64,000 nt of DNA, from positions 930,001 to 994,000 of the forward strand of contig CP021233.1 in the NCBI GenBank assembly GCA_003999685.1, given 5' to 3'. Numbering within the stretch: the first letter of the stretch is position 1; each line of letters begins with the position of its first letter. The notes under the pieces were generated by a model. That model did not search any database and was not told the origin of the DNA. It saw only the letters and a program-made list of their open reading frames with translations. The DNA is from Taiwanofungus camphoratus (lineage: Eukaryota > Basidiomycota > Agaricomycetes > Polyporales > Taiwanofungaceae). Below, one piece after another: positions 21,601-64,000 of this stretch. The position numbers were made by a program, and so were the translations under genes.

Positions 21601-22229
21601 GACATGTAACGGTCGAAACGTTCATATATATCATTCAGAGTACAAGCATAGTTTCATGAGTTCACATATTCATACAGCGGGACCCTATTTCCCACCATGT
21701 TGTCCACCTGCGAGATGGTAAGTGAGAACGTGGTAATCGATGGTCTCACCTGCTAATTGGATGTGCGAAACAGCCATCTGCGATTCTAAACCTAATAGAA
21801 TTTTTTTGAGAAGCTAGTCTATCGGACGTCCGATCTGCGGGGCACTTTGTACACCCATGTTTTCAATTCGCCTTCGAAAAAAATTTCACCTGAGCATCTC
21901 CATGGTGCGCTGTTCCAGAACAGACTATGACTACCGCTCAAGAAAACCCATTCAGTCGACCCCGCTCTCATGATGAAGGATTGTTCCATCCTTCCTGCCT
22001 TGCAGTACCCTTCCTTGTGTGATTCTTTAATATCTCCTGCTTCGTCCTTGCCTCGTTTTCAACGCGCGTTTCATCCTCTCGTGACCAACGAAAACCCTGC
22101 CCAATCCCCCAACGCTGTCTTAAATGCAGCTCGTGTCAATCGGCCGAAAGTATTGCCCCCGACTTCGGAAAGAAACGTAGTCTGATTTATGCTTAGTGAT
22201 CCCATCCGAGTCGCGCAATTGACCCTCCG
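18601..22229. other. Intergenic stretch, nothing recognised
   Basis: Open frames up to 290 codons occur but overlap each other on both strands and carry no family motif, membrane pattern or convincing splice structure. CpG is still common up to 22,229, where it stops abruptly at the edge of the repeat block. Confidence 0.45.
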
Positions 22230-23529: not shown

Positions 23530-24849
23530 CGTTCATATGATCTCTTCGCATTGTCTAGACCCCCTATGTATCAGCTTAACTTCAGTGCTCCCAGATCTCT
23601 GTCCCTCCCAAAGTCTGGTTAGATAGCCCATCTCCCATGTGATGATCTCTAGATAAGCATCCTCTTCTCTGTGCCATTTTCCAGTAACCTTTTTACCACA
23701 TTCAGAGTTCCTGTTTCATGTCCTTCTTCAGTTTAGTTCTCCATATGGTACACTGATCGGTTTCTAGACTTTACAATTTTCAGTTTGTTTTCGGTTTCTT
23801 CAGTTTTATTTTGCATAAGATACTTTGACATCATGAACCCTGTTGTCATATTGACAAGCTCACTTTGGCTTTTTATATATGGTATCGCTTTTCTTATTAA
23901 AGCAGAGTGGTGAAACAAAGCACAGAGTAAGGAATACATATATATATAGTGTAGCTACTTAGTTATTCCTCATCCGTTTGTCTTGAGCTCAATAGACAAA
24001 CTGAACCTCTTTTGTATATTTGCACCTGCATCCTTGCTTATCTACAACAGACCCTTTATGTAGTCTCCTGTATCTACCAGATGGCAGAGAAGATACATGC
24101 TCCCATCTTGTCTCAGAGAATCTACAGACTTGTCCTCTAAAGTTCAGATTTGGGTTTCACCTGCTCTAAGGCTTCCTAACAGTCTGACAAGGTTCCTCTC
24201 TATCATCTTTACACATATTATCAGCCAGCAGTCAATACTATGTCACATATCACAGCAGTTCTACATTCCCCTATGTCCTATATTCCCGAAGTTGGAGTAA
24301 CTTCAGTCTGAGTATCCAGTACCTCTCTTCTCTCTTATCTGACATGCCTTTGCTCTCATTATACCCCATAGGCACACGTTGCATCTAGTCCAGTTTATCA
24401 GTTATTGCCTATGCCAGCTCTACACTCCATCCCTACACCAGTATTCCTCAGCAGCATCTCTTCTCTCGATTATATCAGTTCTTGGTTGTTTTTCAGTTTT
24501 CAGTTTATCATCAGTTCACCCTCAGTTCCCTTCGACTCCCTTGCACCTGGCCGGTATTCTATCAGCTCATTGCCACTGGACTAGAAAACTACATTCTTAC
24601 CTTTCTGGGACTATCCACACTTCAGCACAAGATCCTGTCATACAGGACTCATTGGCCCTTTACTCCTCTGCACATATTAGACTTCTAGAACCCTGACTGT
24701 GGTCTAGGTGATTTCTCTGTCATGTCCATTTGCTTATCTTTTGCTCTGGTATCCCATAGGTACCACACCGCTCTAGCTCTTCTATCTTCAGATGTGTTGG
24801 ACCTACTCCTTAGGTTCATTCCTTCATCAGAACTCCCTAGGTTGTATCA
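23530..24849 (+). repeat. Dispersed repeat copy ending in CCCTAGGTTGTATCA
   Basis: This is the best-preserved of the direct copies, about 1.3 kb long. Its left part matches 23,140-23,500 and 25,580-25,910, its middle (ACCAGATGGCAGAGAAGATA) matches 25,935 and 59,815, and its end matches the other tails of the family. It is non-coding, and its transposition class is unknown. Confidence 0.8.
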
Positions 24850-36108: not shown

Positions 36109-38040
36109 GAGAGCTAAAGCGGTGTGATATCTGTGAAGGATACCAGAGGAAAAGGTAAGTGAGAGAACACGACAGAGAAACTACCTAGACCACTGTCAGG
36201 GGCCTAAAAGTCTAGTGTGTGCAGAGGAGTAAGGGGCCAATGAATCCTGCACAACAGAATCTTATGCTGAGGTGCAGTGATGAGTCCTGTAGCCTCCTGG
36301 GCCCCGAATTGCGATTTTAGGAGCTGTCTAATCCCCCAACCGACCATCCTAAGACTCTTCTACAGCCTACGACAGGTGGGATAGGTTCCTATAATATTCC
36401 TAACACCTCCTTTCCTTCCTAAACCCTTCTAACACCCTATGAAGTCCTGTGAAGTCACACGAGGTGCTACGAGGTTTTGAACGCTAGCCACAAAGTCCCT
36501 AACTCCTGCTAAGTCCACTATCGGACGCTGCCGGCCCTCCCATACTGTTCTATTGGATCTAGGTCCCAGCTACTATGTCACTCATCCCGGGCTTAGCTAA
36601 GAAGTCTTAGCTAAGTCTCTCCTAGCTCTTGTGATTGCAGCTACCTCCGATAGGCTCCGAAACGGTCTGAAGTTCTGGAAGTTGAACTTAGGAAGCCTTG
36701 TGCACCCCATGGGTCTCGATCCTATGCCATAAGGTCATCCTAGGGTGTATCCATATGGCCCTCCACCCAGTTAGGACACCTCCTACCCCGATTAGGCCAA
36801 GTTCCGCTGCTAAGAACTTCGTGCGCTCTTAGCCCACTAAGATAGGTGATCACAGCGCATGGCTGCTCTCGGATAGTCATCCCACCCTTGTGAATGAAGT
36901 TGGTCACCTTTCTACCGTACATAGTTCCCCTGTTTCAGTTCCTATTTAGTTCCTATCCTCCTCGTGTTCACTTCAGAGCCCATGCGCTTTAGTACACATT
37001 TCGGACTCGTAAGGATCACTTCGTGCAAGAATAGTTCACCTCACGCTCCCCTACTTAGTCAGAGGTAGTTTACTATGTACGACAGAGACCCCTCAGTGCA
37101 CGCTTCTCTCTTTGGAATACAAGTTCCCCTGTAGCTCCAATCTCAGGAAAGCGTCATGAGTACAACCTTAGGAACGGTCCTAAGGCCCCTAAGTCTCCAC
37201 CCCAGCTCCGTTTCAGTACCTTTGAACTACGTCTACGCTCGCAATATATCTACAAACCACGTCTACGCTTCCTGAACTACGCACTACGATCTACGAAGTC
37301 GCTGTGACTTCGCGCCCTTCAGCACCTCTTATAGCACCTATCCGGTAGGCCTCCGCCTTAGTTATACCTTTAGGCTCACGTTGCGTCATTCCTACGTCCT
37401 ACGAATAACCCTACAACTCTCCCATAGCCTTCATCTCGGGCTATAGCACCTCTCTCTATGCCCTCGAACTCTCCGACCCACACCTCAAAGTCATCAGACA
37501 CTTCAGAGCTTCCAGCAACCTCGTTCTCCAATTTCTATTTCAAGTATTAGCTCTCCGAACCATTTGACCTCTCCTACAGGTCTCCTACGCTAGCCTAACC
37601 TCGCCCACCTCGTTCTAACAAACCTCTAAGCCTTATGCCCTTTAGCTAACTCTAGTTAAGACTTTGCAGCAGTCTCGTACCCTCTGCCGCTTAGTTGAAA
37701 CTATAGTCTATTGGCTTATTGCTTCCTAAACCCCATACAGCCTACGAAGTCAGCTTGCGTGCTTTAGCTAAAACTTCAAAGGACTTCGCAGAACCTTGAA
37801 GGACTTCATGCACTTTGGAGGGCCTCGCAAGGCCTTAGGGATCGTATAGCACTTAGGAACAAGATCCTGTTGTGCAGGACCCTTGACCCCTTACTCCCCC
37901 ACTTATAAAAACAAGACATACAGGTTTCTCGGTATCATACAGGTTGTAGCTCCTCCCCTCACACCCTCACAGTTCACACATTACCTCTTAGCCACGTTAC
38001 GGAGCACTCCCTAGGTACCAGGGTCCCCTAGGTCGTATCA
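36109..38040. repeat. Remainder of the LINE-interrupted repeat plus direct repeat B, right copy
   Basis: 36,109-36,290 finishes the inverted repeat tail begun at 28,987. From 36,280 to 37,230 the sequence is the collinear, CpG-richer partner of 27,480-28,450. The stretch continues to a forward family end, CCCTAGGTCGTATCA, at 38,026-38,040. With the LINE removed, 28,987-38,040 would be a unit of about 2 kb flanked by inverted TGATACGACCTAGGG ends. No coding motif was seen. Confidence 0.7.
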
Positions 38041-40805
38041 GCGGTGCAAAGCGAAAAAAACCACTTACTTACCTGATAAAGCTCAAGAACCCTATCAATC
38101 ATCATAAATGTGGAAGACCAATGAGTGTCAACATCTCAAAGAAGCTGAACTTCTCAAAGTGGCTCCTGCCTGAACATGTTGCTTGCATTACTTTGAACAA
38201 TAGTGTCATCAAAGTCCTCGCAACACTGCTGTGATGCCCAATATGCAGTGACAAGACTGCATGTTTTTGCCACAGGATCTGCCTGCAGAGCTTCACAATA
38301 TTTGAGATCTACTTGTAGGGCAATGTTATTTGCCTGCATACTTTCTCATGTGTCAGCTTCATCTTTCTTGTCTGACTCCATATTGGTATCACAGTAGATA
38401 ATTGGGTTAACCTGAGTGAGATGTTTGAGGCCTGTTTGAACAGAGACATTGACAATATGAGGAAAACATCTGTTGTGGTAATGTTTGTTCAATTATGCTC
38501 CTGTCCCTTCACAAAAATATACTTACCTAATTTGGCTTTCTTCCCTGTCAAATGGAATCCCTTTTGCTTGCAAGAGAAACTCCAACTCCTCCATCATTGT
38601 TGCACAATTGGATGTGTTATCGAGGGTGATCATGCCTATCTGTCAAGCAGATATTGTAATAAGTACTTGAGAACAAAAAATCTGAGTATAATGCATAGAA
38701 ATACCTTTTCAAGGAGTCCCATTTGTTCCACAATCTTTAAGAAATGAGAGGCCAAGTTTGTGCCAGTATAACTTCCACGGACATAACAAAATGCACTCAA
38801 ACGTGTGCGAATCCATAGCTGACAATGGTTATTCTTGGTGCAGAAATGCAATGTGACCACCATAAAGCCATGCAGCTGTCTGTCTGTCCAGAGATCACTT
38901 GTGAATGAGATGCACTCAAGGGCATTCTGATCACATAATCATAAGTCCAATATATCAACTTGTAGTGAATTGTAGCCTTACTTGAGCTTCTCTAGTTATT
39001 GCCTCATGCTCTTGTACAAAGCACTCTGAGAGAATCTTCGAGATAAGAGTTCTATATGGTATGTCAATGTCCTCCAGATTGGTATCACCAACATATAACA
39101 GAAGTTCTCGAAACTCCTCACAGTCGACTACATTTATGGACTGTCAAATGAATAGATCAAATTGTCAGTAGCTAAACTTGAAAGAATCCAAATTAATGAC
39201 TTAATCACATACCTGGTCATCAATGACTAACCATGCTATGAGTCGCTTGATAAATCCTTCCTTTATGAAAGGCTCAGAATGTCAATGTAGTTTCTGATCT
39301 TTTAAACCTGCAAGCTTTTCCCAGCCCTTAAGGTTCTTGACAATGACTTCTTCACATCATTCCTTCCAATGTTCCTTTCTGAGGTGAGTTCGTATTGCAT
39401 TGGTTTGACCTGTGCTACACTTCCAAGTTTGCCACTGAGGAAGCATGCTAGTCAATGATGTTAATAATCATACAATGATGACATAAGCTCAAATTCCTCA
39501 CCAGAGTCAACATCCAATAAACTGCATGTTTCACAGCCTTTCAAATAAACATATTTTATCTGCTGGTGCCATATCTGGCCTTTTGTCTGTTGTGAGTTTG
39601 TGTGTAAAATACCACACATCACTTGCAGCACTGGCATTATGAGACACCTTCAATTTAGCCAGCAGTGAACTGTGGGAGGGAATAGCAGGCTCTGCCGGTA
39701 TAGTGATGGATGGCCCAACACTGGGGACAGAGATCTGTGGTACCATGATTGACCTTTGTTCAGCATTCTCGATGTGATTCCTATCTGTGTGTTGATGCTT
39801 TCAGCTTAGTAGAGCAGCATTGGAGTTCTCAGTGTGCCTATGTCATGTACTTGTTGTTTGAGATGTGTTGTTAGATGTTTGCACTGCCCCAGTGTTGACT
39901 ACAGAAGATGTTGCCTCAGCGAGTGATGTCTGCAGCAACTGAGAAGGGCTATGCCCTTCTGTGCCAGTGGAAGATGAACCATACAAGCCAGAAGCTAGAA
40001 ATGGTGGTGGTAGAGCATTATACAGATTAGAAAATTGTGGATAGCCCTGTTGGTACAAAAACCACTGAGGAGCTGAGCCATGATAAGAATTATAAGGCAA
40101 GTTATAGGGATGAGAGGTGGGATAGGACTGAGCTTCTGTTTCTGAGGTAAAGCTGATATTTGGTGAGACAGACAGCAATTTGTTATGGCCAAAAGACTCT
40201 GGTGGCTGTGCAGAACTGGTGAGCAATGAAGAGTGGTTGGCACTTGACCAGTGGAGCTGGCCTGAGGGCCCTGGAATCATGTCGCCATGTTCTGAAGTTC
40301 ATTCAGGGACAAACAGCATGAGTTTTTGAGGTGCACCAGCTATTTTATTGTGGAGAGGTCCATGCAAGCTGCCATCTGCTCTCAGAGCTGTGTTGTAAGG
40401 GAGCTAAGGACTGGATATTGTGTTGCGGCTTTTGTGAGCAACCATTGCTTGAGTAGCAGGTCTTAACTTTTAAGCATTCATGTGAGATCAAATCATGAGA
40501 TAATATTACTGTTGACTTGACACTGATACAGATCTACAGGATTATAAGGGCTGAAGCTGATCAGAGAAGATGAGTGAAGTTGCTACAGAGATGGCAAGTC
40601 ATACACACTTTTGTGACATGTCTCAGTCAATTGCGAGTGTCTCAGCTAGTTGTGAGTCACAATGCATCAGCATGCTCCCAGCATGACAGATGACCATGGG
40701 CCCAGAGTTGTTGTTACCTCAAGGTACCTTGAGGTGACCGGCATTGATGCTGGACTACCTCAACCCAACTCGAGGCTCAAGGTATCTCACCTCATGGCAG
40801 CACTA
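38041..40805 (-). mobile_element. Broken hAT transposon
   Basis: Minus-strand pieces read in hAT order. A Pro/Ser-rich head (39,843-40,280) comes first. A BED zinc finger follows near 39,360-39,450 (WKCSTGQTNAIRTHLRKEHW), then EPFIKEGFIKRLIAWLVIDDQ with EEFRELLLYVG. Next are FMVVTLHFCTKN and GSYTGTNLASHFLKIVEQMG, then IGMITLDNTSN, CFPHIVNVSVQTGLKHLTQV and finally HWSSTFMMIDRVLELY near 38,060-38,130. Introns and several stops lie between. The C-terminal dimerisation region is missing because the element is cut off at the repeat end at 38,040. The outer end at 40,805 (TAGTGCTGCC on the minus strand) resembles a hAT terminus. Confidence 0.85.
40726..40745. repeat. Perfect 20-bp palindrome in the hAT end region
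   Basis: ACCTCAAGGTACCTTGAGGT equals its own reverse complement. A related half-site CTCAAGGTA recurs about 30 bp further out, so these may be subterminal transposase-binding motifs of the hAT element. Confidence 0.85.
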
Positions 40806-48370: not shown

Positions 48371-48585
48371 TGTGACGGTTCGGCCGACACTTCCCTTTCT
48401 TTTCGCCAACCTTCGGTAGTGTTCTAGCGCTCTAAAATTTACACTAGTTACTGTACTTAAGTCACCCGTCTGTACGGACTTCGGTAGCGTACATACGAGC
48501 TGAAATGGTCTTAAAACCAGTCACTTCGTGTGCAACGTTCTTCACCGTGTGCCAACACCGACTACCTTTGGTCGCGATCGTCACA
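48371..48585 (+). repeat. Left LTR of the Ty3/gypsy element
   Basis: The 215-bp long terminal repeat starts TGTGACGGTTCGG and ends CGATCGTCACA; the outer TGTGA/TCACA form a short inverted repeat. It is short for a Ty3-type LTR, and no obvious TATA box was recognised. Confidence 0.95.
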
Positions 48586-48756
48586 TATTTTTGACTGTCG
48601 AAGACTCGTTTGAACAACTAGCTTGTTTCTTTATCTCTCGTCGACGTCTGGCTACTCTTGGGTCTGATCAACTCAAGCCTCCGACTCGACGACATCACCC
48701 ACTTCAAAAACACCTTTAACCTATTCATTCACCGAGCTAAAAGAAAACTGCTCTAG

Positions 48757-51700
48757 ATGGCTTCTCGACGGTATAACCTGCAGTCTCAGCTGAGATCGCA
48801 CTCTGCACCGTCTAGTCCAATCATGCCAGGTGAGTTTTTACCTGCTGATGGCCGAAATACTGAGGATACACTGGGCAGAGAGGCTCCGCGGGCATTGTCA
48901 GACACGGAGAGCATCCGTTCGTCCCCCGGAGTGAAGCCTGGGCTACTGTATAGCCAGGTAGTAACTTCGCAGACTCCTGTTATCGAGCCTCGAGCTCAGG
49001 AGTCGGTATCCCTCGTGGCTGGTACCCACTTTGAAAACACTACCTTATCTCCTTTGACGTCATTAGACTCGGAGGGTAGGAACTTATCCGTTGATAACAC
49101 ACATCGTGTAGAGATTAGTCTTAACAGTGATGATAGGGTCATCTCAGATGAGAGACCCTGGATAGAAGTACGACGGACACATCGCAGTAAGAGTAGAGAC
49201 TTGGATAGCTCTACGGCAACCCCTCTATCTCAAAACCGAGTGATGGGGAGCCCTCTGACTCAGGAACAAAGGGAGCTAGTCAAAACCGCTGAAGACTCAC
49301 TGAGTCGAGCAGAGCGGGATTGCATCCAGAAGCGATATCAGATGATTCGGGAAGTGAGGGCCTTTGAGCATCTCGAACCCCGAGGGGAAGGTACTTCCTC
49401 TTTTAAAGGTAAGGGAGTTGACCTGCAAAAACAGAGTGATGCCGATATCTCTGAAGGTGAGCTTAACGTAGAAGCTCAGAGAGAAGAATCCGAGATGCTA
49501 GCCAACAGCCTACCCCACCATGAGAGCATTCTTGGGGAAAGGCTCAGTCTTGATGAGCAGCGAGAAGCTCTAGATTACTGGAGGGCTAAAAAAGCCGCCG
49601 AAAGGGCCGTTGTCGCTGAGGGTGTTCAATCTACAAACGACCATAGGCCAACGGCGAGGGAGAAAAATTTTCCATGGTCTGCAGAAGCTCACGTTACCCC
49701 CTTGGGGGTACCTAGTTCCTATCGAGAAACTATGGAACGTGAGCTGGAAATGGTAAGGGCGAGAATAGCTGCCCTTGAGATTCCGCTCTCAAGCAAAGGG
49801 GAGCAAGCTATGCCCTCTGAGCCAAATGGACCTGCGGAAGTGAGAATTAGTGGGGATAAGCTGCAGAGGGTCACCAGCTCTCGCACCGCACCTAAGAGCG
49901 ACGGCTCTGCTCTGCGGCCTGTCGCTCAGATCGAGCCAGGCAGCTATCTGGGAGCCGCTTTCAAACTATTGGACCGGCAATCCCAGGAACCGCATAACAG
50001 AGACTCGTCGTCCTCATCATCGGACTCCTCTGCTGAATCTGATAGTTCAGATGATGGAAAGCGTCGTTCTAAAGCTCATAGACGGAAAACACAAACCTCG
50101 AGAAGAAAAGTCCCTCTTCTGAAACCTAGAGAGCCCACTCCGTATGACGGATCAGTAGATGTACAGGTCTTCCATAAGTTTATGCGGGAGATGGCTGAAT
50201 ACCTTGATGGGTATCGAGTGAAGGCCTCACGGCAGGCTACTACAGTCTCACATTTTCTCACAGGAACGGCATATGAATTTTTTGTCACTTCGGTGTCTGC
50301 GGAACCGGCAGCATGGGATCTACAAAAACTCTTTATTGAGCTATTCAATTACTGCTTCCCTGTGGATTTTCATATGAAAATGCGAGAGCGGCTACGGCGC
50401 TGCTACCAACGTGAAAAAACTGTTCGTGAATACATTCACGAGCTTGAAAATCTCTTCTTGATGGCCGGAGTATGGTCTGATCAAGAGCGTGTAGACAGGC
50501 TATGGTCAGGTCTCAATATTTACATTCAGAAAGGACTGTGGAAGGAAAAACTTACCCCGACGCATTCCTCGTGGGCGGAAGTTCGTGAAATGGCTGAGAT
50601 TCTTGAAATTGCTGAGAATGTTGGAGAACCTTCTCGAAAAAGAGAGTCCAAGTCTGATGGGAACAACAATGAGAGTCGTAGTTCCCGCTCTAAACAGGCC
50701 TTTATAAAGAAGGATGGTAATAAGTTGGTATCTGAAAATCGCACTCATAAGTCTACCGCATCCGTTAAGAGTAGTATGGGAAACGTACACCACGACAAGC
50801 GTCCGGCAGGGAGCTCAGACACTAGACCACAACGGCCTAAGCTCTCTGATAAAGAGAAAGCTCAACTGTCTGCAGAGGGCAAATGCTTTATCTGCAAACA
50901 ACCGGGCCATTTTGGCCGCAATTGCCCTTCCAACCGGAGTGTTAAGTCCGACCGCAAGGGTAAACCACCAGGAGTGTCTACGTACAGCCTCGAATTTGAT
51001 CTGCAGGATGCAGAAGCTTCGCGCAACCTTGCTGAGGCCACTGCTCGGATAGACCAATTAGAACTGTTCAGCATCGATCTAGAACAGGTAATGGCAGATC
51101 AGCGTGACAAAAATAGACCGCCTGGTGCAGGACCAGAGTTTGAGTGCACACCTGCTAGCAAAGCCCCCAGATCATCTGACCATATGGTATGGACAGCCTT
51201 TGATCCCAGTCAAGATTTTATGACATATATGGAGTTACCTAGCACTCGACGGGAGGGGCGACCGCAGACATGGTTACACGATTTGTATGGGAAACGAGCG
51301 GAGCAGCTATTGAGACAATTTGCGCTGTATTTCTGCCCATCTCGTTATACCTTCCATGAAGATGAGTGGCTGACCTGTTTCGGCGTGTATCGGGTCTGCA
51401 TGCCAGAAAGGCATGCCATCCTCCAGTATTACATCAAAGAGGATCCTCTTCTTAACTCTAATTGGCTTAAGGATCGCAATTTCGACCTATCAAACTGGTT
51501 TTGCCAACAGACGGCACTACACAACAGGGAGGGAGACTGTTATCATATAGACAACAGTGAACCAATGGGGGATGCCTTAGCCTTGGGGTGCGAGGACATG
51601 TTAAACAAGCATGTTCCCTTTCCGGAGGGATTTATGGATTCATCAGATAATGTGCCGCGGTTTCACTGCTTGCAACTTGAGTACGGGGTAGAGGTCCAGG

Positions 51701-51819
51701 ATACATACCTGGAAGTGTGCACTATAATACCAAACTCCCAGCTGGAGAATATCTGGTTTGACTTACCAAATGCATATGCTTGTGCCGTGCGACACTCGCT
51801 GGGTAGGCAGCCCTTTTAA
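48757..51819 (+). mobile_element. Ty3/gypsy gag part, with unusual C-terminal extension
   Basis: The open frame of 1020 codons is long for a Ty3 Gag. Residues 1-450 are a charged, Ser/Glu-rich head ending in an SSSSSDSS tract and a basic patch. Residues 460-620 look like the retrotransposon gag capsid domain (FHKFMREMAEYLDGYR, FVDFHM-type core, REYIHELENLFLMAGVW). The CCHC knuckle CFICKQPGHFGRNC sits near residue 710. After a predicted coiled segment, about 220 further residues (800-1020; LLRQFALYFCPSRY, HIDNSEPMGDALALGCEDML) form an extra domain I do not recognise. In the family, Gag assembles virus-like particles around element RNA. Confidence 0.88.
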
Positions 51820-51828
51820 ATTGACGAT

Positions 51829-54800
51829 TTGGAGGGCGAGTTAAATTCGTTGTTTGAAACACTGGTCCCGGAGGGCGGAACTGATGCGTATACTTGCATT
51901 GAACTTAGTGCGGCACAGCTGTCAGCGGTGCAGCGCAATGCCACTACTCCTAGAGATTTTGAACGCTTGATCCCTGAACCTATCGTAGTTGTTGTTGATG
52001 TCAATGGGCACCCAGCACGGGCTCTCCTGGATTCGGGATCACTGGCTGACTTTATGTCCACTCAATTAGCACACCAATTGGGAGTGAAATCGTTTGAGCT
52101 AAAAAAACCGCTGCCTGTGCATCTTGCTGTCCAGGGATCACGGGCAAAAATCAACTTGGGCTGTCAGGCAAAGGTTGAGTATCAGTCTATTCACGAGCAT
52201 AGATATTTTGATGTCATCAACCTACTGAACTACGATCTGATCCTGGGAACCCCCTTCTTGTTTCAGCATCAGGTCACTCTTGGATTCAACCCGACTACAG
52301 TTGAGGTCGGGAGCAAACTCGCGCTGCCGCTGCAAGGCAAATTTGTAAGGGTCCTGGAGTCCCGTGCTGCTGAAATCTATGAAGACAAGATTGAACGCAC
52401 TCGTCAGTACCTTCGTGACTATGCGGCCCCTATATGCAGGGAAGCAGGGGACTCACCCTTACCTCCGTTGCGGGCCATTAACCACATTATTCCATTGAAG
52501 GATCCGACCAAGGTTTATACTTGGCGTCCATCTAAGTGCCCTGATGCTCTGAGAAAGATTTGGGACGAAAAGCGTGAGGCATACCTGAAATCTGGACGCT
52601 GGCAAATGACAAACGCACGAAATACTAGCCCTATGCTGTTGCTTCGGAAGCCAGGGACCGGTGTGAATGGGATACCGCCAGCGCTGCGAACAGTGTGCGA
52701 TACTCGGGAGCAAAATGCGAATACGGTGAAACTCACCTCGCCATTACCAGATATGGATGGGATATTGCGCCGGCTGGCGCGAAAACGGTGGCGCTCCGCT
52801 GTGGATGGGAAAGATGCATATGAACAGATCCGCATTGAGCCTGAGCATGTTGAGCGAACCGCTATGGCCACACCTGATGGAAACATGGTCAGTTATGTGA
52901 TGCAGCAGGGAGACTGTAATGCCGTAGCGACATACCAGACCCTGATGAACCATATCTTTGGGCCCCACATAGGGGTGTTCATGGACGTCTATTTGGATGA
53001 CATTGTTATCTATTCTGACTCCCTTGAGGACCATGTAGATCATTGCAAGAAGGTAATTGACATACTCAAATGAGAGGAACTTTACCTCAGTGAGCAGAAG
53101 CTAAAGTTCCTGTGTAAGGAGATGAAGATTCTTGGAAGGATTGTTAATGATTCGGGAATCCAAATGGACCCTGACAAGGTGGATAGTGTGTTAAACTGGA
53201 AGGTACCCACTAACAAGGAACTTTTGCGTGGATTCTTGGGCTCGGTGGGGTACTTGGCCGATGATATTGCGATGGTGCGTATACCTATGGGGGTCCTAAC
53301 CACCTTAACGGGGTCAGAGTCAAGTTTCAAGTGGGATTTCACTCACCAACGTGCGTTCGATGAAATCAAGCACCTCGTTCATGCACACCGGGAACACCAT
53401 CGCGTGCCGCTGTGTTATGCCCCAGATGCACCTAACATCTGGTTGGTGACTGATGGCTCGATGGGTGGTATAGCAGGAGTCATCTCACAAGGAGATGACT
53501 TCAAAACGGCCCATGTAGCAGCCTTTTTCTCCGCCAAATTGACATCAGCCCAGTCCAATTATCCTGTACATGAGATAGAGATGTTAGCAGGAGTAGAAGC
53601 CATGAAACGACATCGGGACATCCTCCTGGGATGTCATTTCACATGGTTAACAGACCATAAGGGTCTGATTCATCTGCTTAACCAGAAAAACCTATCGGGG
53701 CGGCAGGCACGTTGGTTGGAACATATTTCCAAGTTTGATTTTGATATCAAGTATGTACCTGGTGTGGAAAACGTACTGGCTGATGCCCTATCCCGTATCT
53801 ATGTGAATGACAGCCCAGGGACGGTGCGTGTGGCGTTCGAATATACTATGTACGATGATAACGAGACTGTTATGACATGGCTCGATTCCGCTTCCATCTC
53901 CATACCTGTATTCACAGGGCTGGAGGCATTTGCCGTTCAAACCCGCTCACACACTACAGCTGAGAGGGGGACATTCAAAGCTGGAGAGAATGTGAAACAG
54001 ACACATGATGAAGTGAGACAGCTCACCATTCCTGAGTCTGCAGGGATGATAGAGGAGACCGGAAATGACCACTCCCACCGCAGGGGGCGACAATGCGTAC
54101 TCATGCCAGCTGAATCGGGGCGCCCTGAGACGGCGCAGGAGTTTGCGAAACGAATTTGGCGTGTCGTCTTGCATGCACCGAGCGCACAACGACAGGAGGG
54201 CGGGAACCTAGACATGATGTTAGAAAACAAGAACGAGACAAACGAGGACGTACCCGCTTCTCCTGAGGACCAGAACGGCCATAAGGAAACATCGTCAATG
54301 GACGACAACGACAACGTAGCAGCGAGCGCAAGGCCAGACGCCACTTCAGGCAGTCTCCCACGTGCTAGCGCTGGCCATCAAAACGAATATTTTGACAATT
54401 CATCCAATAAGGATGGTAGACCCACTGTGGAAGTCAGTAATAAATTCTTCGAGCATCTGTCGGGCAGCTCAGAAGGAATAGACTTGCCTGGAGCACTGAA
54501 AGGCCGATATTCAGAGGACAACTTCTATAGAAAGATCCTCGAGAACCCTAAGCACTTCAAAAACTTTAAGGTGGAGAAGGGGTTAGTATATCTTAAGGAA
54601 AAGCACCGGGAACTACTGTGCATACCTGATATTCGACTGAAACACTCTAAGAGAAGTGCCCGAGAGGTGGTAATCTCTCATGCGCACTCATTACTCGCAC
54701 ACCTCGGCCCCTTCAAGACATCGGGGCTGCTTAGGGACCATGTATGGTGGAAGACCTTGATGGTTGATGTACAGAAATACTGTATCACTTGTATGATCTG

Positions 54801-55930
54801 CAAGAGAAGTAAACCATCAAATCAGAAGCCTTACGGGTTACTGAACCCTCTTGAAGTGCCGGGAACTCCATGGGAAGCCATAGGCATTGATTTTGTGGGA
54901 CCTCTCCCAGAATCTAGGGACCGTGATGCTAGTTATGACTCAATTACCACCATAATTGATCTGCTTACCGGTATGGTTCACTTAGTTCCAAGCCGTACCA
55001 ACTATAATGCACGCAACGTGGCGGAATTGGTGTTTGCAGAAGTTTACAAACATCATGGCATGCCTAAGGCCATAGTTAGTGATCGCGATGTTCTTTTTAC
55101 GAGTCAGTTCTGGACTCACCTTCACCAATTAATGGGTGTTGAACTTAGAATGTCGAGTGCTTATCATCCTGAATCTGATGGTTCCACGGAACGGGCAAAT
55201 CGTACCATTACCCAAATGCTCAGACAGAGCATACAGCCCACTCAAAAGGACTGGGTGGCCCGTCTGCCCGCAATTGAATTTGCCATAAACTTGGCTCATT
55301 CTGATAGTACGGGATATGCCCCCTTCTTCCTCAACACGGGGCGTATGCCAAGGTCAATGATCTGGGACAACCCGGGCGTCAACGAGTATCCAGGAGTACG
55401 TGCTTATGCACAAAAGGTAAAATATACCATCATGTCAGCCCATGACAGCATAATCGCTGCCCACGTCAAACAGACACGGGACGCCAATCGTCGTCGCCGA
55501 GCCACTCCATTTGCTAATGGCGATTTGGTGTACGTTTCAACCAAGAATATGACCCTACCTAAGGGATTAGCCCGAAAATTGATTCCTAAGTATATAGGTC
55601 CTTACCTGTCCACTCAGGACTACGGAAACAATTCATTTCGCATAGACCTACCATCTAGTCTTAGGAGACGAGGGATACACAATGTTTTCCATGCATCCCT
55701 CCTCCGTGTTCATGAACCGAATGATGATAGGCTTTTTCCAGGACGACTGGATAGCCAGGTAGCAGAATTAGAGGACCAGGATGGGGAATGGGCTATTGAC
55801 CGGATAATCTCTCACCGGGGATCAGGCACTGATGCAATTTTCAAGTCAGTTTGAAAATCGGGGGACAAGACTTGGGTGCCTTACTTGTCAATTCGGCATC
55901 TTGATGCCCTCCGATCCTATCTTGAAGTAT
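51829..55930 (+). mobile_element. Ty3/gypsy pol part: protease, RT, RNase H, integrase, chromodomain-like tail
   Basis: Recognisable parts in order begin with the aspartic protease (ARALLDSGSLADF) and the reverse transcriptase with its YLDD box (FMDVYLDDIVIYSD). RNase H follows (WLVTDGSMGGIAGV, FTWLTDHKGLIHLL). A linker of about 200 residues rich in acidic and polar residues separates it from the integrase zinc domain (HAHSLLAHLG with CITCMICKRSK). The integrase core comes next (GIDFVGPLP, VSDRDVLFTSQFW, SAYHPESDGSTERANR), then a GPY/F-type module (GLARKLIPKYIGPY) and a chromodomain-like end (EWAIDRIISHRG). The order RT-RNase H-integrase defines Ty3/gypsy; the tail suggests the chromovirus branch. 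The part carries about two breaks and is treated as a fossil. Confidence 0.9.
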
Positions 55931-56133
55931 TAGGCGTGAAGGAAATTTTGCAGCTTACAGAGGGTAATGGCGACGTGCCTGATGATCCCCAAATATTTTT
56001 GGGAGGCCTCGAAATTCGAGGCTCGGATCTGTCTATTAAAACTCAACCTTATCAGCACTACACTACTACGACGACACACCTCTACCATTGTCTTCCTTCT
56101 ACCTCAAGTGAAATCTCATACCATTCCCATCGC

Positions 56134-56871
56134 ATGGCTCCTCACACATATCTTCGTTGTCTCCCTAATCTGGATGTAATCCTGCATGACCCCGTCTACG
56201 ACACCAGCCATCTGTTCACCGTGGCCCAACTCCGTCTCTATTCCAAGTTTGACCGAAATCTCCGAGACCATCTTTTTGATAAAACATCCACCCCCATCCC
56301 AGGGGGATACGAGAAATTTCAGGAGGTGTGGGCCCGTGACGGAGCTTGTACCTATCAGTTCTCAGAGTACAATGCGGTTACTGGAGAAATCATCACTCAC
56401 GGGCAACCTATCACTATCGACTCCCTTGCTCCCCATCCCGATAAGGAGGAGGAGAGTCCTGAGTATTCGGAAAACCAGAAGGAGCTTATCCAAGTTTTGC
56501 TGTGGGGTGCAGCACAACGGATGAGGAAGCAGGAGGATGGGATCGCAAAGCGACAGGCCGAGCGCAAGGAAAAGCGTAAGGGGAAGCGCGCGACCATGCA
56601 AATCTTCGGGTTAGGAGATGAAGGGGGACTCACTGCAGCTGATGGGGAGGACCAGAGAGGACCAGAGCCGCCTGCGAAACGAAAGAAGATGGCCGTACAC
56701 ACTGAAGCTGGGCCCTCTAAGGCTCGTCACACTTCCCGCGCGGCTGAAAAATGGGCAGCTGCGTCTGGAATGGCCGCTACCGCAGAAACGACCAATGCTG
56801 CCATTCGTAGGGACACGACTGCCGAGAAAAGCGCTGACGTCGAAGGAAACCTCATGCAGACTGAGGAGTGA
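56134..56871 (+). mobile_element. Extra ORF downstream of pol in the Ty3/gypsy element
   Basis: A 245-codon open frame (MAPHTYLRCLPNLDVILHD) lies between pol and the right LTR. The first half is a compact region (FTVAQLRLYSKFDRNLRDHL, IPGGYEKFQEVW). The second half is highly basic and Lys/Arg/Glu-rich with a likely nuclear signal (PPAKRKKM). No family is recognised. Chromoviruses normally have no such ORF, so it may be an acquired gene. It ends directly in a hairpin before the right LTR. Confidence 0.6.
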
Positions 56872-56889
56872 CCATCGTTGACGATGGTC
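56870..56889. repeat. Perfect 9-bp hairpin just before the right LTR
   Basis: GACCATCGT and its exact complement ACGATGGTC are separated by two bases, starting in the stop codon of the extra ORF. Ten bases later the right LTR begins. The short purine-rich GGAGGG between them is the best candidate for the polypurine tract. Confidence 0.8.
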
Positions 56890-56899
56890 GGAGGGCGTA

Positions 56900-57114
56900 T
56901 GTGACGGTTCGGCCGACACTTCCCTTTCTTTTCGCCAACCTTCGGTAGTGTTCTAGCGCTCTAAAATTTACACTAGTTACTGTACTTAAATCACCCGTCT
57001 GTACGGACTTCGGTAGCGTACATACGAGCTGAAACGGTCTTAAAACCAGTCACTTCGTGTGCAACGTTCTTCACCGTGTGCCGACACCGACTACCTTTGG
57101 TCGCGATCATCACA
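56900..57114 (+). repeat. Right LTR of the Ty3/gypsy element
   Basis: It has the same 215-bp length as the left LTR, with four single-base differences and no indel. It is followed immediately by the ATTAT duplication. Confidence 0.95.
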
Positions 57115-57119
57115 ATTAT
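57115..57119 (+). repeat. Target-site duplication ATTAT, right
   Basis: It matches ATTAT at 48,366-48,370. Confidence 0.93.
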
Positions 57120-58184
57120 CGATGCGGGTGTAAGTCGGTTCTGAGTCCTGTAGAGGCCCAAGGCGCATCAGGTGCTACATAGAGCTCAAGCTAGCTGCTC
57201 AGAGTTGCTCGGGAAACCCTGCAGTCTGTATCTAATCTGCAACTTTGGATAAGTAGATGATCCTAGACAAGTCGACAAGAGCTGAAACAGAGCACCTCAA
57301 AGACAAGCTTGAGACGATGCTGCCATCAGCGATAAGCAGCAATCAGGAAGTCGTATATTAGTATGAAGATTCTGGCGCCGTTCCAGCTTGGGCATTTATG
57401 AACAAGAAAGTCTTAAAACGGGAGCCTTGCCTGCAGCTTGCCCTTGCACATTTCCAGGCGGTTGATCTGAGATTCAGACCTCAGACTTTCACCACCACTT
57501 GATTGCTCTCATGAACAGAGACCTATCAAACAGCCCCAGATAGATGAAGAGCAAACATCTCACATTTTAACTCCAGACTATTGTTTATGGGGTACATTAA
57601 GATGGATATATATTCTTTTCATAATTCACTGAGACTTTGCATATATACTTGTCTTGTATAGTGATGTGCCAGGCCCAGCTTGGCCCAATAGCTGGGGCTT
57701 GGGCCTGGCCTGACACAGCTCAGGCTTGCTAGACATTCAGGTTGAGCCCTTGACCATGGCTCAAGCTCAGCTTAGGCTTGGCTTGGCTCAGGTTGGGGCA
57801 TACTGTATCATATATAGAAGAATGTAACTCATTTTTCCACTTACTTGCAGTTTAATATAGCATGATTGAATTGTCTAGCAGTAGGCAGACACTTGATTTG
57901 AGCACCTAAACAGGCAAGTAAGGCTTAGTAAGCCACTGCCTTCAGGTGTGCAACAGCCAGCCAGCCCTCTCTTTAGCTGCAGCAGTATGGCTTATCTGTT
58001 TATTTAGGTTCTGTATTTAGAAGCCCATCTAAACCTGTAAAATTTGAGCACACTACAACAATCTGCAAATAAGTGTACTGATGAGGCTGGAAAACTATAC
58101 ATATATTTAATGGATATCAGTGATATGTCTCTGGCCCTATCTTAATGGCTCAGCTCAGGCTTTTAGAGAGTATAAGCTGAGCTA
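57120..58184. repeat. CpG-free repeat remains with a hAT-like end
   Basis: CpG ends at 57,460. From about 57,659 (TAGTGATGTGCCAGGCCC) a GC-rich but CpG-free stretch repeats GGCTTGGGCCTGG- and GGCTCAGG-like words to about 57,800. This is the style of subterminal repeats at hAT ends. No transposase is nearby, so this is only a suggestion. The rest is unrecognised AT-rich sequence. Confidence 0.45.
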
Positions 58185-59797
58185 CAGTGACTCAAAACTG
58201 TTGCAATGTTTGTCACTTTCTGACTGTTTGGCCTATATCTCAGCAACCCAATATGTGATAGCTTCAAATATTGGACCATTAGAAAGCCCTGCATCATGGC
58301 TTTCTAATGTGGTATCTATTATGAAAATGAACAAGTATATGTGAAGATATGTATCATTCTTTCAGAGAGTCCATTGCAATGATTTTGTTGCTGGCATAAT
58401 ATGAGATAGAAAATACAAATTATTAGTACTTAGTATATCCTCCTTTTGCCTTTATCACAGCCTCTACCTTTCTAAACATACTTTCTATCAAATTTTGACA
58501 CACAAAAGTATCAATTGCATCTCATTCCTTCTCTACATGCTTTCAAAGCTTTAAAATCCCACTTAAAGGCTTTTCATACTATGCAAGCCTTGTTTTCAAG
58601 TGTTGTCAAAGGTGCTTAATAGGATTGAGGTCAGGACTGAGCTGGCCATACCATGACATTAAAATCATGGTCCTGAAACCACCTTGTAGCCTTTTTGCTA
58701 GTGTGCTTGGGGTCATTATCTTGCTGGAAGATGACATCTTGAGGGGTTAGACCATAGTAATCAACTGATCCTTGAAGTTCATCCTCCAAGATGCTGATAT
58801 AAAGGTCTGCATCCATCCTCCCATCAATTGTGCATGCCAATCCAACTCCTTCTCAAGTCATACAGCTCCATACCATAACACTCCCTCCACCAAACTTGAC
58901 TGTTCTCTCCATCAGCCTGGCACTAAGACCCTTTCCTGGCTTTTTCCATGCCCATTTCCTTTCATCTGACCCCAGGCAATTGATTTTGATCTCATCAGAC
59001 CATATAACCTTCTTCCAATCATCCACAGTCCAGTGTTGGTGACTCACAGCAAAGTCCAATCTCTTTTTCTGATGATGCTTTGATAGTAGTGGTCATTTCT
59101 TCTTCATCACAGCCTTCATACCTGTTTTTCTCAGAAAACGATGAATGGTCTGTGGGGATATGGGTGTGTTCTTAATATTCTGAAGTGTTTTAGACACTTG
59201 AACAGCACTTTCAGCCTTTCCAGTGCTAATTAAGTGAATAGCATGACAAATATCAGTGGAGAAAAGCTTGGCTGGGCAGCCACCAGAGGACTTGAGAAGG
59301 ATAGGACAAAGTCTAGAGTATATCCTGATGATAGTACTATAATGTACACCAGTAGAGCTGGATATTTGGTGAACAGATTGACCTAAATCAAACAGAGAAA
59401 GAATTTGATTAGAAATGTCTGTAGAAAGGGATTTCATAATGATGAAAGTGTGGTTCAATTTGACATTATTGCCTGTTTGTGCTATGTTGAACTTCCCTTA
59501 AGGTCTCATGATTTGCACAAAAAGATTCAAGCCCAGCAAGCATGATGTCCTGCCACTGTCTGCCAATATTTGATTTGCAAAATGTCAGCAACCAAACTGT
59601 TGCAATGAACTCTCTGAAAGAATGATAGATAACTTCACATATACTTGTCCCTTTTTTATGATAGATACCACATTGAAAAGCCACAATGCAGGGCTTTCTA
59701 ATGGTCCAATATTTGAAGCTGTCACATATCTGGTTGCCAAGATATAGGCCAAACAGTCAGAAAGTGACAAACATTGCAATAGTTTTATGAGTCACTG
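58185..59797 (-). mobile_element. Broken Tc1-type DNA transposon with long inverted repeats
   Basis: The 1613-bp element is flanked by TA duplications (58,183-58,184 and 59,798-59,799). Its terminal inverted repeats are about 213-216 bp, start CAGTGACTCA, and are roughly 90% alike. The minus-strand transposase starts near 59,437. It shows the paired helix-turn-helix head (ISNQILSLFDLGQSVHQISS, TPISPQTIHRFLRKTGMKA), then the first catalytic Asp in VIWSDEIKI and the second in FQQDNDPKHTSKKA. In the third position the expected PDLNPIEHLW reads with Lys for the catalytic Glu and a stop for Trp. Stops after MKKK and after CMT and a frameshift after AQS also break it. It is a DD34E-type relic, almost CpG-free. 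Confidence 0.93.
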
Positions 59798-59799
59798 TA

Positions 59800-60282
59800 T
59801 GTAGTCTTCTGTACCTACCAGATGGCAAGAAAGATACATGCTCTCATCTTGCCTCTCAGAATCTATAGACTTGTCCCCCAAAGTTCAGATTTAAGGTTTC
59901 CCTGCTCTAAGGCCTTCCAACAGTCTGACAAGATTCTCCTCTATCATCTCTACACATATTCTCAGCCAGCAGCCAGTACTACACCTTTATTCCACCAGTC
60001 CACTGCCTTAGAATTAGAAAACTACATTCTTACCTCTCTGGGACTGTCTGCACTTTGACACAAGATCCTGTCATGCAGGATTCATTGGCCCCTTACTCTC
60101 TTGCACACACAAGACTTCTAGGCCCCTGATTGTGGTCTAAATGATTTCTCTGTCATGTCCTTTCACTCACTCTTTCCTTTGATATTCCCCCTTAGGCACT
60201 CCATCTCACTACTTCTCCTATCTTCAAACACATCAGATCTACTCTCTAGATTCACCCTTCCAGGACTCTCTAGGTTGTATCA
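59800..60282 (+). repeat. Dispersed repeat copy hit by the Tc1 element
   Basis: From ATGTAGTCTTCTGTACCTAC onward the sequence matches 24,057-24,849 and 25,916-26,673 with internal shortening, and ends in the family tail CTCTAGGTTGTATCA. The Tc1 element abuts its left side, so it inserted into or next to this copy. Confidence 0.8.
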
Positions 60283-61099
60283 CTGGCATTGATCACAATA
60301 TACAATTGCATTTGCTGATCATATTTCATAGTGAAAGATAATGTGCCATCTCCAGTGATGCTCTGTAAAAAAGAATAGTCAACCTAGTCACAAATCTAGT
60401 CCCTAAATTGTGCCAATAGACTAGCTAGTCATTTTTCTCAACCACATCTGTCCAAATTTGGAGGAAATAGTCATGCATTAGTCAAGGAGTAGTCAATTCA
60501 AGTGATTAATAAGTGACCATGCTCCCTGATCATGGCAGACATGGCCCAATTGGTGAGGATAAAAGGGCCATAAAATATTGATTGAAATATGGTCAGTATG
60601 TCAAAGAATTTGTGAGGGTTGCCAAATTTGCCTTACATATTCCAATCTCATGCTCTGATTGGTCTAGAAGCCAACTTTTGAATGGATTTGTGAGCCTTCC
60701 AAACTGATCTACACATTGACTATATTTAAATAAGTATGTTAAGACTATCTGACCCTCGTCAATTGCCCCATGTCTGCCGTGGATTTAATCACAATAATAA
60801 TCACCTGGCATGATTTGGGGACTATGGTTGACTATCCTTTTTTACGGAGAGGCCCGAAGAGTCGACAACTCGAATAATAAGACTGATGCGCTGAGTTTGA
60901 AGTACGGCCGTCACTTGTTAGCCGTCGTTAGCCAAGTCCACTGCCCCCCCTTTTCTCGTCGTCCGAGCTCACCGTTGCCCATCCTGCCTCGTCTTGTTTT
61001 TCCGTATTCTCTCCTTTCATTCCTCTCTCTAAGTCACACACTCGTTTTTGACTTTCTCGGTGCAACGAAGACATAAAGCTGTTGACAACCAGCTCGATC
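60283..61099. promoter_or_regulatory. Repeat-to-gene boundary and upstream region of the membrane glycoprotein gene
   Basis: CpG is absent up to 60,756 and common right after, marking the edge of the decayed block. Between about 60,955 and 61,060 the plus strand is pyrimidine-rich (CCTTTCATTCCTCTCTCTAA), a usual feature close to transcription starts in fungal genes. The gene start at 61,100 follows. Confidence 0.5.
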
Positions 61100-62879
61100 A
61101 TGCCCAACGGTCTCACCAAGATTCGTTATGGACATGCTGTAGCACCCTCTCATGGTTATCGCAAGCGGGGCAGTGAGTTACTTGTATTTTCTTGACTTTT
61201 TGGAAGGCACAAGTGTTGTGGTCGTCGAAATCGGAGAGCGGTAGTCTGCCAGATAACGAACCGAGTGATCGCTGACATGGCCGTAGGTTGCTCCACAGGC
61301 GGATTCTACAAGTCCCCAAATCCCGGAGAGTCCATTGCGTACACTTCCCCTCTCGACATCGCTTGGGATACATCATGCATGAACACGACGGCCATTGATA
61401 TCTATCTCTACGCTCCGGGCGCTTCTCAGCCCCGCATCCACGAATGGGCGAATGTGGATTTCGCGTACGGCAGCTACAACACAACTCTGGAACCGAAATG
61501 GTGGAATGCCACTTCATCGGTCAGTCTTCAGTTGGCCATCGTCCCTTCCGGGACGCCACCTTTCCTTGCGACGCTGCCCGCGGGTCCAGTCTTCACGGCA
61601 ACTTATGACGCGTCCACGTCGGGCGCGATCCCTGATGCCGCTGACACATCGACCACGGGTGCTTCCGTACAAGAAGTAAATAACCTACCTACGAAACACA
61701 GCTCATCGAAGGGCAAAATCGCGGCTGCGGTGCTAATACCGTTGCTTGTGGTTATCGGCCTGATCGTATGGATATATATCAAGCGGAGCCGTGAGAAGGG
61801 CAGGGAGGAACGAAAGCGGTTCAGCGTGGCGGTTGACAAGCGGATGTCGACGATATCGACGGACTGGAGACCGATCTCTACGGCAGGTGCGACTGCGGCG
61901 ATCCGTAATAGCATGGTCGTAGGCTCCAATGGTGGTAACCGCACCTCGTCATTTTCGTTTGGCGGGATCCGTCCAGCGAGCACGGTTGTTCTCGAGGGCG
62001 GTCAGGCTGGGATCGGCGCCAAGGGGCTGTATATGCAGGAGAATGGCAGCCTTGGCCAGGTGGATCTGCCTCCTATGGCACAGCTTCGGCCTGGAGCTCG
62101 TACGTCTGCGTTTAGCGAGCGCACCTCCCGTGTATCTTTTGCACCTGACACCCGTCCATCTTCCGAGTATCGTCGCACCCGTGCATTCCACACAGGCCAC
62201 GTTCCGCCTCTCCCTGAGAAAGATCCCGCCGAACTCTCGCCTACGCAGGCCGAGGGCCCCCTCAGTCTCACTGCAGAAGATATATATACACGTATGTCTG
62301 TCCATGAGGCAGCCGTTCGCCCAAGTATGGATGAGGTCCTTCCTGCCCTTTCAAGTAGGTTCTATCGCTGCTGGTTAAATCGCCCCTCTGACATGTTTTG
62401 GTCTTTCTCCAGTGATGCGTACTGGCGGTGACGACAGCGTCTGTACCAATGACATGCTTCTCCCAGCTCCTGCCCCTGCAACGTCATCCGCTGTCCCTGC
62501 TACCATGCCTGCGCCCCCGGCACCTGCTCATCAGATTACCAAGTCCCCCATCATGGGTGTGATGCCCATGCAACCTATGCCTGCCAACGTGATGTCTCCT
62601 GATGAGATGTTACGCGCGTATGCCGAGCGCCGCGCTCTCCGCTCTCCGCCTATTCCTGGTGGGCTCGCTGTCCCTGCCCCAGTTGCGAACTACAACGTCA
62701 CCGGCATGCGCACGCTCTACTCGCCCACCACCACGGACTCGTCGGCTACCGTGGTGCCGCTAACACCTGAGTCGTTGTACCCTTCCACGCCGCAGGTTGC
62801 AGGGTACCGACAGAGCATGGCGCCCACTGAAGATAGCCGATACGACGAGGAAAACGTGCAGCATGGCACTGCCGAGTAA
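61100..62879 (+). CDS. Single-pass membrane glycoprotein, function unknown
   Basis: Exons 61100-61172, 61287-62354 and 62413-62879 give 535 residues, with GT-AG introns of 114 and 58 nt and closing phases. The N-terminal 180 residues form a probable extracellular domain with N-glycosylation sites (NTT, NAT) and motifs YTSPLDIAWDTSC, IDIYLYAP and LEPKWWNATSSVSLQLAI. One membrane helix follows (IAAAVLIPLLVVIGLIVWIYI), then a basic stop-transfer stretch (KRSREKGREERKR). The cytosolic tail of about 330 residues is Ser/Pro-rich, with FAPDTRPSS and PPLPEKDP. This layout resembles fungal surface sensors or Mid2-like proteins, but no family is certain. The start is weak: the first 24 residues are not a clear signal peptide and end in KR (Kex2-like), so a further upstream exon is possible. 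Confidence 0.8.
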
Positions 62880-64000
62880 GCGCGATATGCGCAACTATAC
62901 ATAGATGCCACTCAGCGATATCTTCCCTCCTTCCTTAGTTGCGGTTGTAGGATTTGTGATGTGGTGGGCCGTTCGTCTCCATAGTCGGTCGTAGGCAATC
63001 GCACGGAGACGAGCCGGCACTGATTGTTTCATTATGCGTATCGATATTCGATATTTGCCCATATTCTACTCATCTATCTTTACCCGGCCCTTGATTTCCT
63101 CCTGTTCTTGTCTCTCGCCCTGTTTCCGTCTGTTTTTTTGACGATCTTTACTGTGTGCTACCGGTATGATTTCCAATTCATACCCTCCGTTCTTCTTCCA
63201 AAACCTTCCCGCGCCAAAACGCCTTGGCCTACGACAGCGTCGTCTTCTATACCCGTTGGTACATTATTTATTTTTCACCCCTATTCGTACAATTCGTGAC
63301 TACTGTCCACGACGAATGCGCTGGTCTCTACTTCACGCCTGCGCCCACACTTATGGCACCCACGTACACTTGCTTTGTTTGACTGCTTGTTTTACTTTTG
63401 ACATCGGTGCCATGTAATTTGATCGCTGAATATTGTCATCTTGACATTTGTACATCCAGCCTTGGTGCGCCCTTGATCAGTATCGCCGCTGCAGAACATG
63501 ATTGGGGAGCATGCATGTCATTCTGCACCAATGTGTACACCGACGAACATTAAGTGAATGGATGGCAGAATGTCCTGCATGAGCAGATGAGTCGCGTATG
63601 GTCGCCGCTTCTTGAACCAGTACCACCATCTCGATTTAGCGCCCGTGCCCAGCATGTCTAAATCCCATCGTTCCCTTCCTTTTTCCCCCCATACTGGTGC
63701 CCCTATAGCCGCTGTTGGTCTTAGGACTGATGGTGCACCCACCTCGTCGAGTGCGATGTCGGTGCATGGCGGCTGCCCTGCTCATTGCACTCAAGTCGAC
63801 TCGGACCACCCGAGCTCTTGTCCTTTGGACACACCTTTGATCTCACCCTATCATGGGGAGAGATCCATTTCGAGTTCCTCCCTCTCGGGAGGTCCTCTCT
63901 CAGAATCAACGGCCACTGTGCTAGACGATTCGCAAAGGATTCACAGTAGGCCCTCTCCCTCTAGGGGAGGGGGCAACGAATACAATGGTATTGAAGACAG
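62880..64000. other. Downstream region, nothing recognised
   Basis: T-rich sequence with short frames follows the membrane glycoprotein gene and must hold its 3' end. No motif is visible up to the right edge. Confidence 0.45.

Follow-up and report, generated by a model that had tools for sequence, protein, structure and literature searches.

A nearly CpG-free repeat tract in Taiwanofungus camphoratus, probably left by gradual decay of methylated CpG

Repeat-induced point mutation (RIP) in Neurospora prefers CpA and requires RID. Among basidiomycetes, CpG-biased C-to-T change in transposons was described as RIP in Ganoderma sinense, where nearly all affected transposons were reported to be methylated (PMC4457147). 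A similar CpG bias was reported in the transposons of Tricholoma matsutake, described as lacking rid and dim2 and as having two masc2 copies, and its authors leave open whether RIP produced the change (PMC6980582). CpG-only signatures in three basidiomycetes have been linked to Masc2-type enzymes (PMC4352252), a review describes a preference for CG in the reported methylomes of Basidiomycota and names DNMT1 and DNMT5 as their main enzymes and usual set (PMC7862722), and an enrichment of RIP-like signatures in repeats was reported as unique to ascomycetes (PMC12543289). CpG-biased decay of transposons is already known in basidiomycetes, and the locus described here is ordinary in kind and extreme in degree. 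It lies in a stretch of 64 kb, hereafter the window, corresponding to C14:930001-994000 in the 33.19-Mb genome of T. camphoratus (15 contigs). Within this window the tract 57,461-60,756 holds a single CpG, and is very probably an old silenced repeat domain whose CpGs were lost by gradual deamination of methylated CpG.

The sole CpG of the tract was found at 59,139-59,140, exactly as claimed in an earlier note on this DNA, and the flanking CpGs are at 57,459 and 60,757. From the base composition 131.5 CpGs were expected, in agreement with the hundred or more announced in that note, and the single one observed corresponds to an observed/expected ratio (O/E) of 0.0076, compared to 0.86 for the entire window. 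Measured from CpG to CpG, the two halves of the tract (1680 and 1618 bp) were the longest CpG-free runs of the window, the third longest covering 1302 bp (22,228-23,530). The depletion was specific to CpG, as the O/E of other dinucleotides was 1.12 for GpC, 1.07 for CC, 1.05 for TC and 1.19 for CT; equal depletion of all C-containing dinucleotides, by which the earlier note would have been refuted, was thus not observed. TpG (1.43) and CpA (1.37) were raised, and their excess (79.5 and 76.3, respectively) accounts for the CpG deficit of 130.5. ApC (0.81) and GpT (0.82) were mildly low, with values of 0.92 and 0.94 in the entire window. An origin of the tract in low-GC or AT-rich sequence is ruled out by the normal GpC, CC and TC together with the raised TpG and CpA. 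The loss of CpG in the tract is real, CpG-specific and far beyond chance. An O/E below 0.2 was observed in 16 of the 128 non-overlapping 500-bp bins of the window, so that the tract is not unique; besides the tract, these bins fall at 22.5-28.5 kb and 38-40.5 kb, within depleted stretches that extend over 22.2-29 kb and 38-41.5 kb.

We propose that the CpGs of the tract would have been methylated on both strands, presumably by DNMT1-type enzymes and DNMT5, and that the 5-methylcytosines would have been deaminated singly over a long time, each event replacing a CpG by TpG or CpA, and nearly every CpG would eventually have disappeared. The domain would stop inside the short repeat MITE-B (for miniature inverted-repeat transposable element), about 340 bp before the possible start codon of a likely gene, where genic CpG would have been spared. 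Both the methylation of the tract, now or formerly, and the enzyme responsible for it are what we infer; the observations behind the proposal are the CpG-specific loss with its gain of TpG and CpA, a rough scaling with age, the random strand and position of the hits, a link with the neighbourhood and the presence of methyltransferase genes. The tract itself consists of stacked repeats, in order a dispersed repeat of 540 bp, a Tc1-like element, a second dispersed repeat and two short repeats. In window coordinates, the region is organized as follows:

48371-57114, plus strand: young Ty3/gypsy long terminal repeat (LTR) retrotransposon; LTRs of 215 bp, 98.1% identical; ATTAT target duplication; most CpGs intact
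57115-57460: CpG-bearing spacer between retrotransposon and tract, 346 bp; 13 CpGs, 20.5 expected
57461-57640: left edge of the depleted domain; 0 CpG, 6.4 expected
57641-58182: dispersed repeat; 0 CpG, 26.1 expected
58185-59797, minus strand: Tc1/mariner-like element; inverted ends of about 215 bp, 88.5% alike; carries the sole CpG (59139)
59799-60290: dispersed repeat; 0 CpG, 20.4 expected; relatives at 24-29 kb and 36 kb of the window
60355-60530: MITE-A, short dispersed repeat of 176 bp, a presumed MITE; 0 CpG
60531-60783: MITE-B, short dispersed repeat, a probable MITE from its inverted ends
60784-63000, plus strand: normal CpG, right limit of the depleted domain; putative gene with open reading frame (ORF) 61196-62431 and a possible start codon at 61100

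The 57641-58182 repeat, a hAT-like end in the reading of the earlier note, gave 14 non-self matches with 73-88% identity, on contigs C3, C4, C5, C6, C8, C9, C11 and C13. None of the 14 reached into the approximately 180 bp of 57,461-57,640, for which no other genomic copy was found. The left boundary was not attributed to the edge of the Ty3 element, since the 3' LTR stops at 57,114 and the next 346 bp hold 13 CpGs. The Tc1 relic recognised in the earlier note was supported by the inverted ends and by the TA that borders the element on each side (58183-58184 and 59798-59799); the match of its minus-strand transposase relic (59093-59497) to HTH_Tnp_Tc3_2 was weak (E 0.0012) and below the Pfam cut-off. 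At least 124 matching pieces of this element were present in the genome, 40 of the 73 candidates being scored, and genome copy counts are accordingly lower bounds. The right boundary of the domain falls inside MITE-B, whose left end and body are devoid of CpG and whose right end has CpGs at 60757 and 60778. Beyond it CpG was normal, with 19 against 17.0 expected in 60784-61098 and 158 against 153.3 expected in 61099-63000. Elsewhere in the window, about 2 kb (12001-14000) showed 72-76% G+C, compared to a window mean of 50%.

Relatives of the Ty3 element were found at three further places, on C8, C7 and C10, each in pieces. Their identity to the window copy was 98.7% over 8744 positions (C8), 96.4% over 8673 (C7) and 86.3% over 4292 of the 8744 (C10). 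Each was aligned to the window copy and read site by site, a base common to two copies being taken as the older state. The CpG sites remaining were 241 of 259 in C8, 242 of 266 in the window copy, 247 of 386 in C7 and 9 of 192 in C10. Transitions per CpG cytosine amounted to 3.6%, 4.8%, 18.1% and 49%, respectively, the last value being near saturation because a single hit destroys a CpG. In the same order, transitions per CpT cytosine were 0.09%, 0.26%, 0.52% and 8.1% (1, 3, 6 and 48 events), corresponding to CpG:CpT rate ratios of about 41, 18, 35 and 19 (saturation-corrected for C10); since the two youngest copies contribute just 1 and 3 CpT events, this ratio is no more than roughly constant. 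The C7 pieces, with a CpG O/E of 0.56-0.68 and about one third of their CpGs gone, were midway in the decay. The series indicates a family in which near-identical copies persist and CpG would fall stepwise, roughly in step with the other substitutions.

Each strand and each site appears to have been hit independently, as the deamination of 5-methylcytosine predicts. In the C7 copy the clustering of lost versus kept CpGs was not significant (169 runs, 179.1 expected, z -1.1). The strand agreement of neighbouring CpGs was random both in C7 (65 of 137 the same, 69.2 expected, z -0.7) and in C10 (74 of 162, 81.5 expected, z -1.2). A larger sample was provided by 30 Tc1 loci (L006-L035; 26 full length and 4 partial), the best matches when 40 of 73 candidates were scored; the query was CpG-free, so that intact Tc1 copies were possibly missed. 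Across these copies 29 sites showed both TG (388 cells) and CA (327 cells), CG being retained in 95 of 847 cells. Agreement between neighbours was 0.490, versus 0.504 in shuffles (z -0.9), and the per-copy strand bias showed no overdispersion in the 25 copies left when 5 near-duplicates were dropped (chi-square 22.1, 24 degrees of freedom). Two Tc1 pairs, L024/L025 on C8 and L031/L033 on C10, were less than 1% apart off the CpG sites and had a largely common pattern of CpG loss; duplication therefore probably came after the loss. The base preceding the CpG was also considered. In C7, TCG was the lowest context (33/219, against 41/186 for ACG, 35/198 for CCG and 31/166 for GCG), and it was again the lowest of the CpG contexts in C10 (47/120); in the young Ty3 copies it was second of four, on 6 and 7 events. 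TCG was rejected as the target, a T before CpG having no consistent preference across the Ty3 copies.

The loss of CpG from MITE-B, a 230-bp repeat, was linked to its surroundings. Its 14 copies (that of the window and 13 of the 15 listed non-self places) were compared at the 7 sites where two or more of them had CG, gap and TA cells being excluded. The 8 copies in CpG-normal DNA retained CpG in 32 of 49 cells and the 6 copies beside CpG-free DNA in 7 of 35 (Fisher P 5e-5, uncorrected for the relatedness of the copies). MITE-B thus retains the majority of its CpGs in CpG-normal DNA and loses them beside CpG-free DNA, and therefore the neighbourhood matters. Around Tc1 copies the CpG O/E was 0.24 in the adjoining DNA and climbed to 0.56 at a distance of 1-1.5 kb, whereas around the 8 isolated MITE-B copies it was 0.89-1.15 throughout. 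The Tc1 flanks were unscreened for other repeats, so this gradient is no proof of spreading. A repeat of 145 bp (window 37901-38045), for which at least 30 places were listed and a longer query containing it gave 542 first-look candidates, kept 3-5 CpGs in 15 of the 16 copies fetched, mostly 89-95% identical. Copy number alone was rejected as the origin of the depletion, MITE-B and the 145-bp repeat retaining CpG. Next to this repeat, the 2.7 kb of 38,060-40,790 were CpG-depleted and had diverged relatives only, the best with 67% identity over 1.4 kb on C9, which implies that close present-day copies are not required; its two ORFs had no Pfam match, and a hAT-like motif in this stretch is at most possible. 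The earlier note had held that depletion in single-copy DNA would refute its interpretation, and this was observed in part, with no match for 57,461-57,640 and diverged matches for 38,060-40,790. Depletion in both segments fits spreading and old relics, and is not a refutation of methylation.

Five matches to the C5-methylase family were found in the genome, and we read them as 4 genes: DNMT5, DNMT2 and two DNMT1-like genes. Putative CpG methyltransferase genes (DNMT5 and the two DNMT1-like genes) are thus present. The sole PDB match of the gene on C5 was chain 7r76_A, labelled Rad8 (E 7e-90), which we take to be DNMT5. The family is written DNMT5/Rad8 in a review (PMC7862722). The DNMT2 gene is on C1, and the two genes matching DNMT1 are on C3, both with a BAH domain, one of these below the cut-off. 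The DNMT1-like enzyme for which the earlier note suggested a search was therefore found, and the RID type named beside it was not identified among the 5 matches, no tree having been made to separate RID from DNMT1. The second DNMT1-like gene (L069, C3:1504500-1509500) contains a 3.1-kb locus (L005) with a CpG O/E of 0.50 and 44% G+C; this gene is therefore possibly part of a domain undergoing decay.

Several observations weigh against a gradual decay of methylated CpG. C-to-T change was also raised outside CpG, chiefly at CpC, and plain CpG methylation predicts neither. The mutation rate of CpG in vertebrates is raised roughly tenfold, and the CpG:CpT ratio of about 18-41 in the Ty3 copies exceeds this value; across the copies it was constant only roughly. 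The final 0.7 kb of the C7 copy had lost 4 of 39 CpGs, versus 33-55% in the remaining bins. In the Tc1 strand test, 1 of 11 distance bins (250-299 bp) was negative (-0.13 ± 0.04). Finally, two MITE-B copies were exceptions to the influence of the neighbourhood, L043 having 3 CpGs beside CpG-free DNA and L055 having 2 in CpG-normal DNA.

An alternative that we consider unlikely is that CpG methylation decay was accompanied by a weaker cytosine-directed process preferring CpC in transposons. In three pooled Ty3 copies C-to-T change affected 182 of 1815 CpG (10.0%), 51 of 2912 CpC (1.75%), 22 of 3377 CpA (0.65%) and 10 of 3379 CpT (0.30%), with a CpC rate about equal whichever base came after CC. 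CpC was likewise first of the non-CpG contexts in the C10 copy, and in 25 Tc1 copies the values by trinucleotide were 11-17% for CpC, 3-10% for CpA and 3-6% for CpT. The 8 MITE-B copies in CpG-normal DNA had no CpC excess (8/176, versus 11/161 for CpT), and their CpC:CpT event counts differed from those of the Ty3 copies (P 0.0006). Against a second process, the 6 MITE-B copies beside CpG-free DNA were only slightly higher in CpC (13/146, versus 8/125 for CpT), and the 145-bp repeat, its copies unsorted by neighbourhood, was also rich in CpC hits (17/425, versus 6/354). For Rhizoctonia solani AG8, a published Table 2 lists CpC changes with a shorter spacing than those at the other three dinucleotides, both in genes and in repeats; the figure is a spacing in bp, possibly not normalised for CpC abundance (PMC4014442). 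The CpC excess therefore possibly reflects a general mutation bias. That a second modification or deamination of cytosine, directed at CpC, acts in transposons besides CpG methylation is a doubtful proposition; if true, it would leave a reproducible order CpG > CpC > CpA > CpT, which differs both from RIP, where CpA leads, and from plain CG methylation.

A CpG-directed RIP-like system, in which repeats would be actively mutated in the sexual cycle and CpG would be gone within a few generations, appears improbable. C-to-T change is indeed strongly raised in repeats, MITE-B in CpG-normal DNA and the 145-bp repeat mostly escape, which would suit a length threshold, and the comparable data from G. 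sinense were named RIP (PMC4457147). However, the genome contains Ty3 copies that share 96-99% identity over pieces of 1.2-8.7 kb and still have a CpG O/E of 0.56-0.91: in this family long near-identical duplicates seem to survive, which is not what RIP would leave. The decay is roughly proportional to age and has an intermediate in the C7 copy. Strand-wise hits were rejected, since no strand runs were visible in the Tc1, C7 or C10 copies, and clustering was not significant. TCG was not preferred, CpA was neither the main target nor the preferred non-CpG context in the Ty3 or Tc1 copies as far as their mutations tell, and the 5 methylase matches were read as the four genes described above. Of the two mechanisms offered in the earlier note, methylation followed by deamination is thus supported, whereas the CpG-directed RIP-like one is unnecessary and most of the tests speak against it, among them the near-identical Ty3 copies that keep CpG. 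A repeat-directed process of low efficiency would still be conceivable. It is very improbable that the repeats were CpG-poor from the outset and lost nothing: the 29 clear CpG-derived sites of the 30 Tc1 copies, against about 61 expected from the composition of the window copy, suggest that a low CpG content may date back to the Tc1 progenitor, but those sites carry TG or CA according to the copy and some are still CG, the TpG and CpA excess is of the right size, and copies of MITE-A and MITE-B elsewhere hold CpGs where the tract reads TG or CA (3, 6 and 3 CpGs in the three MITE-A copies read), which refutes the idea for MITE-A, MITE-B and the 29 Tc1 sites.

On the strength of mutation counts, the CpG-biased decay seen in basidiomycete transposons has been ascribed to RIP (for example, PMC4457147). 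With Ty3 relatives diverged from the window copy by approximately 1%, 4% and 14%, and a short repeat present inside and outside depleted domains, the choice between RIP and slow decay becomes partly answerable from sequence, and in this genome such evidence points to slow methylation decay over RIP. If decay is slow, CpG-free tracts would document where methylated domains once lay and where they ended near genes.

Compared with the known systems, the locus resembles Neurospora RIP in its C-to-T changes in repeats; it differs in that CpG is hit most and CpC second, and in that the methylase matches included no gene identified as RID. The hypermutation of R. solani AG8 is similar in its frequent C-to-T changes at CpG and CpC, and differs in affecting genes and repeats both, as described, whereas here the CpG-normal side retains CpG (PMC4014442). 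The RIP-like TpCpG hypermutation reported for Microbotryum and other Pucciniomycotina shares a CpG-containing target in basidiomycete transposons, and differs by the T before CpG, which is not consistent here (PMC5381629). The CG methylation by DNMT1 and DNMT5 involves enzyme types like those found here, where it is suggested by mutations only (PMC7862722). A likeness in target is also seen with G. sinense and T. matsutake, in which CpG is the main target and repeats are affected; those cases are described as RIP, whereas here copies of differing age indicate gradual decay, and the second context is CpC instead of the CpA given for G. sinense (PMC4457147). The tract is an unusually complete and well datable case of a phenomenon known in fungi.

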